Below the pieces are notes generated by a model, which did not search any database, was not told where the DNA came from, and worked only from the letters and a program-made list of their open reading frames with translations. Positions 39,107 to 53,245 of a DNA stretch of 64,000 nt are shown here, one piece after another. The stretch lies in contig JALNQF010000058.1 in the NCBI GenBank assembly GCA_028456385.1, positions 124,001 to 188,000 on the forward strand. The letters are read 5' to 3'. The translations under genes were made by a program, and so were the position numbers. Every line of letters begins with the position of its first letter. Position 1 is the first letter of the stretch. The stretch is from Ophiosphaerella korrae. Taxonomy: Eukaryota; Ascomycota; Dothideomycetes; Pleosporales; Phaeosphaeriaceae.

Positions 39107-39635
39107 GCGCCACTCCTCGTGAGCGCTGATGCTCGTGATTTCAACAATATACGAGAACCAGCCCGACCCTTAGAGTCGAGCTGCGGTCTGAACCACCTAG
39201 ACGTGGAATAAGCTGAGGCATTGAAAAGGCGTTTTGGCGCCCAAAATAAATAGGGATATGGCCATTCAACAGCCATTCAACAGATACCCTGAATAGCATC
39301 ATATCGCACAGCTGCGGGGATGAATGAAATTAACAACGCATGAAATGTACTTAGACACATGCCATCTAAACTTTCCCACTTGAGCTGACCTTGATTTAAT
39401 ACTTTCCCAAACAAAATCACGGCATTGATGGCCAACAGTTGAAGACGAGAGCAATCACGTGTCAATTATAGGATTACCCCTCACCTGAGTCTCTTCCCTA
39501 AAATAGAACTAGCTTTTACGGATCCTGTATTTGTGAGTCGGGGCTAAAGTTCCCCATGGGGCATAAGACTATATGGTTGCGTTTATAAATGTGAAAAATC
39601 TCTGAGATTTCACCTTGCAGACAATTTCAGATCGA
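39107..39635. other. Intergenic DNA before the tRNA gene
   Basis: Nothing recognised; contains a direct repeat GCCATTCAACA near 39260-39280. Confidence 0.4.
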
Positions 39636-39642
39636 GCCCGTT

Positions 39643-39653
39643 TGGCGCAGTGG
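39643..39653 (+). promoter_or_regulatory. Pol III box A of tRNA-Thr
   Basis: TGGCGCAGTGG fits the box A consensus TRGYNNARNNGG and lies entirely 5' of the D-arm intron. Confidence 0.85.
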
Positions 39654-39657
39654 TAAC

Positions 39658-39716
39658 GTACGTCCACTCTGATTCCTCCATTGTCTGTTCCAGCATAGGT
39701 CTAACTTGTGATCCAG
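39658..39716 (+). other. Spliceosomal-type intron inside the tRNA D-arm
   Basis: 59 nt, GTACGT at the 5' end, CTAAC branch site at 39701-39705 (branch A 12 nt before the AG), CAG at the 3' end. These are the same signals as in the protein-gene introns of this window (for example GTACGT at 8471 and 61435). Its 5' part can pair with the D-loop (AGTGG 39649-39653 with CCACT 39664-39668). Excision joins GGTAAC to GCGTCGCA and completes the D-stem. Confidence 0.75.
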
Positions 39717-39730
39717 GCGTCGCACTTGTA

Positions 39731-39742
39731 CCTTGTACAGAA
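39731..39742 (+). other. Canonical tRNA intron (37/38)
   Basis: Twelve nt, CCTTGTACAGAA, immediately 3' of position 37. It contains TACA, able to pair with the TGTA of the anticodon loop, as in canonical tRNA-endonuclease substrates. Confidence 0.8.
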
Positions 39743-39756
39743 ATGCGAAGATCCGC

Positions 39757-39767
39757 GGTTCAATTCC
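39757..39767 (+). promoter_or_regulatory. Pol III box B of tRNA-Thr
   Basis: GGTTCAATTCC matches box B (GGTTCGANTCC) with one change. The A-B spacing is enlarged by the two introns to just over 100 nt. Confidence 0.85.
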
Positions 39768-39784
39768 GCGAGTGGGCATAAATC

Positions 39785-39790
39785 TTTTTT
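39785..39790 (+). terminator. Pol III T-run terminator
   Basis: Six T beginning seven nt after the mature tRNA 3' end. Confidence 0.85.
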
Positions 39791-51567: not shown

Positions 51568-53245
51568 ATGGTACGAAAACCTAGAACCACCACGGCCCTA
51601 CACACCGCAATATAGCTGACGAAAGCTAGGTTGTCCTCGCAGCATCGATATGCACAAGAGGCGGCAAGGCCGTTCTCTCGCGTCAGTTCCGAGAAATGCA
51701 ACGCTCTCGAATCGAAGCTCTACTTGCCTCCTTCCCGAAGCTGGCAGATAGCGGTACCCAGCACACCATCGCCGAGCAGGACAATGTGCGCTACGTATAC
51801 CAACCCCTCGACGAGCTGTACATGGTCCTGGTCACCAACCTACAATCAAACATCCTGCAAGACATCAACTCACTCCACCTATTCGCCCAGGTTGTCTCTT
51901 CGATATGCAAATCCATTGACGAGCGCGAAATCTTGAAGAATGCCTTTGAGCTTCTGACTGCCTTTGACGAAATTGTTACACTAGGATATAGGGAGAACCT
52001 GACCATGAGCCAGATTAAGACATTTCTGGACATGGAGTCGCATGAAGAACGCATCCAGGAAATTATTGCGCGGAACAAGGAGCTCGAGGCTTCAGAAGAA
52101 CGCAAGCGCCGAGCCAAGCAGCTCGAGATGCAACGCAAAGAGATGTCAAGATCTCAGCGAGCCGGAGGCGGTATGGGTGGTGGCATGGGCAGTGGCAGCA
52201 TGGGGCGCTCTCCATCCTATCCTGCATTTACACCCAGCGTGCCCACCACCAATGTCACCGACGCATACGACTCATATGAAAAGGAAAAGAAGGCCGCAAG
52301 TAAGCCGCTGGCTCTAGGCAAGAAGGGCATGCAGCTCGGCAAGAAGAAGCAGGGAAATAATCTGTTCGAACAAGTAACCGGAGGCCTACCGCAAGAGGAG
52401 GAACCGCTCGTCTCGCCCAAACCTCCTGCGCCAGCTGTAGCTGCTCCTGTCAGCGCGCGCCAATCGACCTCCATCGATCGACAAGCCATACACATCACTA
52501 CAACTGAGACCATCTCCGCCAGATTAGATCGTGAGGGTCTTCTCAAATCTTTTGAAGTCAAGGGAGAGATGCAGTTAAAGATTTCTGACCCGTCCTTGAC
52601 ACAAGTCAAGCTAGACCTCGCAACTGGCGACACCCGCGGCGCCCAACTTATGACACATCCCAAAGTTGACAAGACTGTCTTCCGCAATGACAAAGTCATC
52701 CAACTCTCTGATACAAGCAAAGGTTTCCCTTCGAATATGGGCATTGGTGTCATGAAGTGGAAGCTTGCACCACGGCCCGACGATGTGTCTGACCCACCCA
52801 TCACCTTCCGCGTCTGGGTCGAAGAATCAGGCAACTCGTTCAACATTACTGTCGAATATGAGCTCACAGGCAGCGGCCCATTGAAAGATGTCACCGTCGC
52901 CATACCATATGAAACGGACGAGCCCAGCATTTCCTCTTTCGACGCCGTCTATGAAGTTAGTGGTGACAGCATCGAGTGGAACATCGGTACCGTGGACGAA
53001 GCAAACAGCTCTGGTAGCTTCGAATTCGAGGCACACTCCGGCAGCGACACCGAGTTTTTCCCTATGCGTGTTCGCTTCTCCAAGAGCACGCCATTCGTCG
53101 ATGTCGATGTAAGTCAATTCGTCATGTTTATGTCTCGGGCTAATTTGCGTCATAGGTATCGTCTGTCACACTGCTGTCTATGGGACAAGGTATTGGATTC
53201 TCAAAGGACGTCAAGTGTACGGCAGACGTATATGAAATCGCATGA
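51568..53245 (+). CDS. RET2: Coatomer (COPI) delta subunit
   Basis: Three exons (51568-51570, 51630-53108, 53156-53245) give 523 residues. The first coding exon is just the ATG; the 59-nt intron then leads to VVLAASICTRGGKAVLSRQF, the canonical delta-COP start. The longin-type N-domain (DNVRYVYQPLDELYMVLVTN) is followed by a helical linker with KRRAKQLEMQRKEMSRSQR and a Gly/Ser-rich spacer. The mu-homology domain covers about 275-523 (ISARLDREGLLKSFEVKGEM, MKWKLAPRPDD). Part of the COPI coat for retrograde Golgi-to-ER traffic. The last exon completes the mu-homology fold (VYEIA). Confidence 0.95.

Follow-up and report, generated by a model that had tools for sequence, protein, structure and literature searches.

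Does the spliceosome process a tRNA? In the textbook view, tRNA introns belong to a protein endonuclease. The window that we analyzed (the whole 64-kb stretch of DNA) contains a tRNA-Thr(UGU) gene that is interrupted twice, by 59 nt in the D-arm and by 12 nt between positions 37 and 38 (Table 1). A sequence-only reading of this locus had described the 59-nt segment as having GTACGT at its start, a CTAAC branch site, and CAG at its end, and had noted that such an intron would mean either that the spliceosome acts on a tRNA precursor or that an intron transposed into the gene. The segment is as described, and a search for similar introns turned up six more tRNA genes in the same genome with the same signals and unrelated intron bodies. 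The 59-nt segment is very probably a spliceosomal intron of the U2 type (GT-AG), excised by the spliceosome, in a tRNA gene that would be transcribed by RNA polymerase III (Pol III); it is one of at least seven.

We first consider the anatomy of the gene. Given 251 nt around the gene and lax filters, the Rfam tRNA model matches exactly 39636-39778 at 32.6 bits (the cut-off is 29), and the alignment skips 64 nt in its D-loop and another 14 nt in its anticodon loop. Neither an Rfam scan of the entire window at default settings nor ARAGORN without introns reported a tRNA at this locus. Once both inserts are taken out, ARAGORN identifies tRNA-Thr(tgt) and 20 of the 21 stem pairs form. As had been stated, box A precedes the intron, and box B and a run of six Ts follow it; the box A call uses what we take to be the consensus. 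After removal of the inserts, the gene has the paired stems, both internal boxes, and the terminator of a functional tRNA gene. By its position, the 12-nt insert is a canonical eukaryotic tRNA intron, while the 59-nt insert lies elsewhere. We rejected two other readings by ARAGORN, tRNA-Gln(ctg) if one intron is allowed and Ser(aga) if only the 59 nt are removed, because the two-intron reading as tRNA-Thr pairs 20 of 21. A TATA-like pattern was found upstream of 8 of the 11 tRNA genes that we scanned, which are the window gene and seven others with the element at -33 to -46. By the same pattern, two Cys genes lack the element; the scan of the Gln gene covered 31 upstream nt only.

Table 1. Features of the interrupted tRNA-Thr(UGU) gene, the other interrupted tRNA genes, and an mRNA intron of the window. 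Positions without a contig are in the window; tRNA position numbers in all seven genes were assigned by eye.
Feature	Location	Strand	GT-AG insert between	Insert at 37/38	Remarks
tRNA-Thr(UGU)	39636..39778	+	23/24	12 nt	window gene
Exon 1	39636..39657	+			acceptor strand, box A, D-loop, up to position 23; Rfam model match
Box A (TGGCGCAGTGG)	39643..39653	+			read from sequence
59-nt spliceosomal-type intron	39658..39716	+			a one-base shift gives the same product
5' splice site GTACGT	39658..39663	+
Branch site TCTAAC	39700..39705	+			branch A at 39704, 12 nt ahead of intron end
3' splice site CAG	39714..39716	+			first AG downstream of branch
Exon 2	39717..39730	+			D-stem 3' end, anticodon stem 5' strand, anticodon TGT (39727-39729), A37
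12-nt canonical intron (CCTTGTACAGAA)	39731..39742	+
Exon 3	39743..39778	+			anticodon stem 3' strand, variable loop, T-arm, acceptor, discriminator A
Box B (GGTTCAATTCC)	39757..39767	+
T6 Pol III terminator	39785..39790	+
TATA-like element	39584..39589	+			52 nt upstream of mature 5' end (-52)
Coatomer delta mRNA intron	53109..53155				47 nt
tRNA-Cys(GCA)	C18 (L059)		24/25	15 nt	box A-box B spacing search
tRNA-Pro(UGG)	C973 (L052)		34/35, within anticodon	14 nt	Rfam search
tRNA-Leu(CAA)	C126 (L068)		in variable arm	30 nt	box A-box B spacing search
tRNA-Gln(CUG)	C52 (L118)		11/12	21 nt	T-arm + terminator search
tRNA-Lys(CUU)	C168 (L111)		11/12	none	branch-acceptor-box B pattern; also on T-arm + terminator list
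tRNA-Lys(UUU)	C312 (L053)		14/15	none	partial Rfam match

We searched the host assembly (63 Mb in 974 contigs) by four routes: the Rfam tRNA family, the spacing between box A and box B, a pattern of branch site, acceptor, and box B, and a pattern of T-arm plus terminator. At least six more tRNA genes have such inserts, at other positions, for a total of at least seven. In the Thr, Cys, Pro, Leu, and Gln genes, a second insert lies at 37/38. The seven genes measure 123 to 160 nt between their mature ends, and each is followed by a terminator of five or more Ts. When the exons are joined, 19 to 21 of the 21 stem pairs form in every gene, and U33 and T8 are kept in all seven. With both inserts out, ARAGORN names every gene as expected: Thr(tgt), Cys(gca), Lys(ctt), Lys(ttt), Pro(tgg), Leu(caa), and Gln(ctg). 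Unspliced, and without the intron option, none of the seven is detected. If only the GT-AG insert is removed and introns are allowed, then Cys and both Lys genes are named as expected; Thr, Pro, Leu, and Gln are misnamed because ARAGORN puts the 37/38 intron elsewhere.

Five of the seven genes (Pro, Lys(UUU), Leu, Cys, and Gln) were retrieved without using any branch motif, although the introns of Cys and Lys(UUU) were recognized only after the branch-pattern search. The signals had already been noticed when Thr was picked, and Lys(CUU) came to light through its CTAAC pattern. The tally of seven leaves out introns with CTGAC branch sites. Another 31 nuclear tRNA-like genes were read with ARAGORN or by eye, although not each of them was scored; 30 seem to have either no insert or one that is consistent with 37/38. 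Seven of 38 should not be taken as a rate, because the census is incomplete and partly motif-selected. The remaining gene (L050, C24:310280-310410) resembles tRNA-Ser; we set it aside, as its best insert solutions are not GT-AG. Its long insert and imperfect anticodon stem are accounted for neither by a plain 37/38 intron nor by a GT-AG intron.

Several other candidates were also set aside. L112 (C712:76211) is a tRNA-Val(AAC) whose insert fits 37/38 and whose CTAAC is the anticodon loop. L037, a Lys(CUU) gene, has GT..CTAACAG inside 17 nt, but a 36-nt insert at 37/38 fits fully. By eye, L115, L116, L119, L120, and L121 do not look like complete tRNA genes. Separately, a tRNA-Val(tac) gene (L007, C2:113942-114013) is nearly identical to copies on a mitochondrial-like contig (L012, L013, and L014 on C92).

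The seven inserts are 48 to 59 nt long, start with GTNNGT, contain CTAAC or CTAAT, and end with CAG or TAG. The donor is GTAAGT in five of them, GTACGT in Thr, and GTTAGT in Cys; the branch is CTAAC in all but Gln, which has CTAAT; and the acceptor is CAG in four and TAG in three. For introns in fungal U3 genes, the available portion of PMC5832005 gives a branch of RCTRAY, 6 to 36 nt between branch and acceptor, GTRWGT as the commonest donor, and YAG as the acceptor. Five of the seven donors fit GTRWGT, and GTACGT and GTTAGT are each off at one place. CTRAY fits all seven branches and the full RCTRAY fits four, with the R missing in Thr, Lys(UUU), and Pro. If we include the insert in the U6 gene (described below), all eight have the ends of a U2-type intron (GT...AG with a GTNNGT donor) and a CTRAY branch 6 to 36 nt before the acceptor; the branch A is 9 to 13 nt from the intron end. 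We scored seven inserts (six tRNAs and U6) for AGs downstream of the branch, and in six of them no AG comes before the acceptor. The exception is Cys, which has an AG one base past the branch box.

Such signals rarely arise by shuffling: among 200,000 mononucleotide shuffles of each insert, they recurred at most once (never for Thr). The composite pattern (GTNNGT, CTAAC, and YAG within 45 to 65 nt) has 7 occurrences in the 64 kb, both strands counted, and the Thr intron is one of them. In the pattern searches, reversed-pattern controls outnumbered the raw hits, both for the box A-box B spacing (25 hits versus 49) and for the branch-acceptor-box B scans (64 versus 109 and 88 versus 171). Thus, the raw counts are meaningless alone, and the evidence is the surrounding tRNA structure. 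Among the branch-pattern matches, similar sequences starting CTAACAGA-AG recur at C40, C46, C179, C183, C255, C557, and C806; these look like a dispersed repeat.

We also considered whether these could be ectopic tRNA introns that are cut by the tRNA splicing endonuclease, as in red algae and nucleomorphs. tRNA introns at non-canonical positions are known from the Guillardia theta nucleomorph and from Cyanidioschyzon (PMC4090602, in the portion available), and the second insert at 37/38 in five of the seven genes would fit an endonuclease. However, all seven tRNA inserts and the U6 insert fail a relaxed computed test for the bulge-helix-bulge (BHB), which 44 of 3,000 random sequences pass, and cutting by the endonuclease leaves GTNNGT, CTAAY, and YAG in all seven unexplained. 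We consider this explanation very unlikely. The introns of nucleomorphs, Cyanidioschyzon, and archaea resemble those described here in lying in the D-arm or elsewhere outside 37/38, sometimes with two or three per gene. They differ in being endonuclease (BHB) substrates, or else inserts of 3 to 24 nt whose mechanism is unknown, and the available portion of PMC4090602 does not mention GT-AG or branch signals for them. The string "spliceosom" is absent from PMC4090602 (2014).

The signals of the tRNA inserts are shared with other introns of this genome. The sole U6 match above the cut-off is at C185 (C185:41983; L054, 1501 onward), and this gene reads ...CACGCTCA/GTTCGT...GCTAAC...GACAG/ATCAAAGAGAAGCTACCA, followed by nine Ts. 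By the signals of the tRNA inserts, the U6 insert is 53 nt and lies near the 3' end of the gene; we chose the exon borders by eye from what we take to be the ends of U6. A donor of GTAGCT was dropped in favor of GTTCGT, four bases upstream, which yields a U6-like 3' exon. The U6 gene probably carries a 53-nt spliceosomal intron. Canzler et al. (2016) is reportedly the reference for such introns in fungal U6 snRNA genes. As an example of an mRNA intron, we used the coatomer delta gene of the window, whose protein is 94% identical to that of Phaeosphaeriaceae sp. PMI808 and 89% identical to that of Parastagonospora nodorum (each with 87% query coverage). From these identities, we take the host to belong to the Pleosporales, close to Phaeosphaeriaceae. 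The intron of the coatomer delta gene is marked by a break at the same place in three of four aligned homologs; the fourth (a JGI record) reads through in one frame. The signals of this intron (GTAAGT, GCTAAT, and TAG) are those of the tRNA-Gln insert, and its 47 nt compare with 48 to 59 nt for the tRNA inserts (just one mRNA intron was compared).

Spliceosomal introns in genes for other noncoding RNAs are known. Like the inserts described here, those of fungal U6 snRNA are GT-AG introns in a Pol III small-RNA gene, but the hosts here are tRNAs, most of them with a second insert at 37/38 (PMC5832005, in the portion available). Introns in fungal U3 snoRNA genes have the same types of donor, branch, and acceptor as the tRNA inserts, and as with the tRNAs, intron-bearing and intron-less paralogs occur in one genome; besides the host gene, they differ in lying at a few clustered positions, whereas those in the tRNAs are scattered (same source). 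In lichen fungi, mRNA-type introns interrupt rRNA, which is also an ascomycete transcript that is not made by Pol II, and according to the available portion of PMC8527467, they are removed in vivo, in yeast too. Those are Pol I transcripts, while here the transcripts would be Pol III tRNAs. In the literature searched, which mostly excluded subscription papers and was available in part, we found no report of a spliceosomal intron in a tRNA gene.

Uninterrupted relatives are present for some of the seven genes. An uninterrupted tRNA-Thr(UGU), with a 10-nt insert at 37/38, is at C20:100511-100592; Cys has an uninterrupted copy at C57, and Lys(CUU) has copies at C201 and C390. The joined exons of Thr, Cys, and Lys(CUU) match these paralogs. 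Gln has a full-length relative (79%) at C1:787593-787678. We found no uninterrupted copy of Lys(UUU), Pro(UGG), or Leu(CAA) among the best candidates of the Rfam and DNA searches. This census is incomplete, as it leaves out the Rfam matches at C656 and C769 and many T-arm pattern matches, and a DNA search can miss a diverged copy: one such search missed the Thr gene at C20.

The C20 gene rules out the window gene being the sole tRNA-Thr(UGU), and the window copy may be dispensable. The sequence-only reading would have counted a silent locus, with an intact tRNA-Thr(UGU) elsewhere, against its proposal, and the second part of this, the gene elsewhere, is present. So, is the window gene a pseudogene with an insertion in its D-arm, while C20 supplies the tRNA? 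When just one of many synonymous tRNA genes of a eukaryote has a short insertion in its D- or T-arm, that gene is supposed to be a pseudogene (PMC4090602, in the portion available). However, the window gene has kept its terminator, its boxes, its TATA-like element, and 20 of 21 pairs. It differs from the C20 gene at seven stem positions, and six of these keep pairing (three changed on both sides and three on one side); the seventh, 13-22, is unpaired in both genes. Also, six other tRNA genes have the same signals, and for three of them we detected no uninterrupted copy. Decay into a pseudogene is possible for the window gene alone and leaves the set of seven unexplained; overall, we judge it to be improbable.

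A second copy of part of the Thr insert is at C208:29581-29636 (minus strand), which repeats 39634-39689 of the window (96% over 56 nt) and so covers exon 1 plus 32 nt from the start of the intron. We saw no 3' half of a tRNA beyond it. This fragment looks like a truncated duplicate of a Thr gene that was already interrupted, and the intron seems to predate the duplication. Seven inserts in a single genome, one of them with a partial second copy, might suggest copies of one mobile element that by chance ends in GT and AG. But the C208 copy includes a tRNA exon, so it is a gene duplicate and not a free element. Furthermore, pairwise comparison of the intron bodies (28 pairs, with U6 among them) revealed no marked similarity (top z of 2.2), so that no shared family is apparent at that sensitivity. 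A mobile element is extremely improbable, and the lack of likeness points to separate gains.

The borders of the inserts cannot be fixed by folding alone. In six of the seven genes, ARAGORN accepts 155 to 247 deletions of similar length per gene (209 of 385 for Thr); for Pro, it accepts 3 of 385. A simple pair score, computed for all of the genes but Gln, prefers a non-GT-AG deletion by 0.5 for Thr and by 1.0 for Cys, and gives 24 to 719 ties for Lys(UUU), Pro, and Leu. The GT-AG segment is singled out only for Lys(CUU) by the pair score, and nearly so for Pro by ARAGORN. The border can slide, with the same product, by one base in Thr, Pro, and Leu, by two in Cys, and by three in Gln, but not at all in either Lys gene.

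We then compared deletions to the uninterrupted paralogs across the first 36 to 37 nt (2,800, 2,800, and 2,412 deletions). For Cys and C57, the best result has 0 mismatches in 36 nt and is reached by three equivalent slides, one of which is GT-AG. For Lys(CUU) and C390, the GT-AG segment is the unique best, with 1 mismatch in 37 nt; against C201 (73 nt, 2,232 deletions), it ties with one other deletion for the best result, at 9 mismatches. For Thr and C20, the best deletions are also 59 nt, but are shifted by one or two bases, and have 2 mismatches versus 3 for the GT-AG deletion. The GT-AG deletion alone keeps the pair 12-23, which is C-G in the C20 paralog and G-C in the window gene. For the Thr borders, we thus rely on the uninterrupted C20 gene, which places them to within two bases, together with the GT-AG ends and the pair 12-23.

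If the 59-nt segment is a spliceosomal intron, then expression of the gene would most likely proceed as follows. Pol III would use the upstream TATA-like element together with boxes A and B, and would transcribe the gene through to the T6. The spliceosome, which also acts beyond ordinary mRNA precursors on U3 and U6 (PMC5832005, in the portion available), would recognize GUACGU, UCUAAC, and CAG, and the 59 nt would leave as a lariat. The restored tRNA body would then fold and its ends would be trimmed, and the tRNA endonuclease and ligase would take out the 12-nt intron last. We place the spliceosome before the endonuclease because the endonuclease reads the mature tRNA body (PMC10539383, in the portion available). 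In both Lys genes and in Gln, the insert breaks box A. By eye, the GTAAGT donor of these three genes partly extends the box A consensus, and this continuity may keep their internal promoters working.

A stronger version, which we favor by a little, is that the spliceosome is obligatory for tRNA processing in this fungus: the sole genes that we found for Lys(UUU), which reads AAA codons, for Pro(UGG), whose insert is inside the anticodon, and for Leu(CAA) would need it, and their introns would be independent gains, perhaps by reverse splicing. In that case, decoding would depend directly on mRNA-type splicing.

If these are spliceosomal introns, then they would be clear-cut examples of intron gain in very small genes whose structure is known, some with uninterrupted paralogs alongside. 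Such genes would also escape gene finders, as illustrated by ARAGORN, which without introns misses all seven and with them calls the window gene Gln(ctg). More broadly, our results suggest that in the host fungus, tRNA production also involves the machinery that splices mRNA. Two unrelated splicing machines would then act on one small precursor, and translation would be linked to the capacity of the spliceosome.
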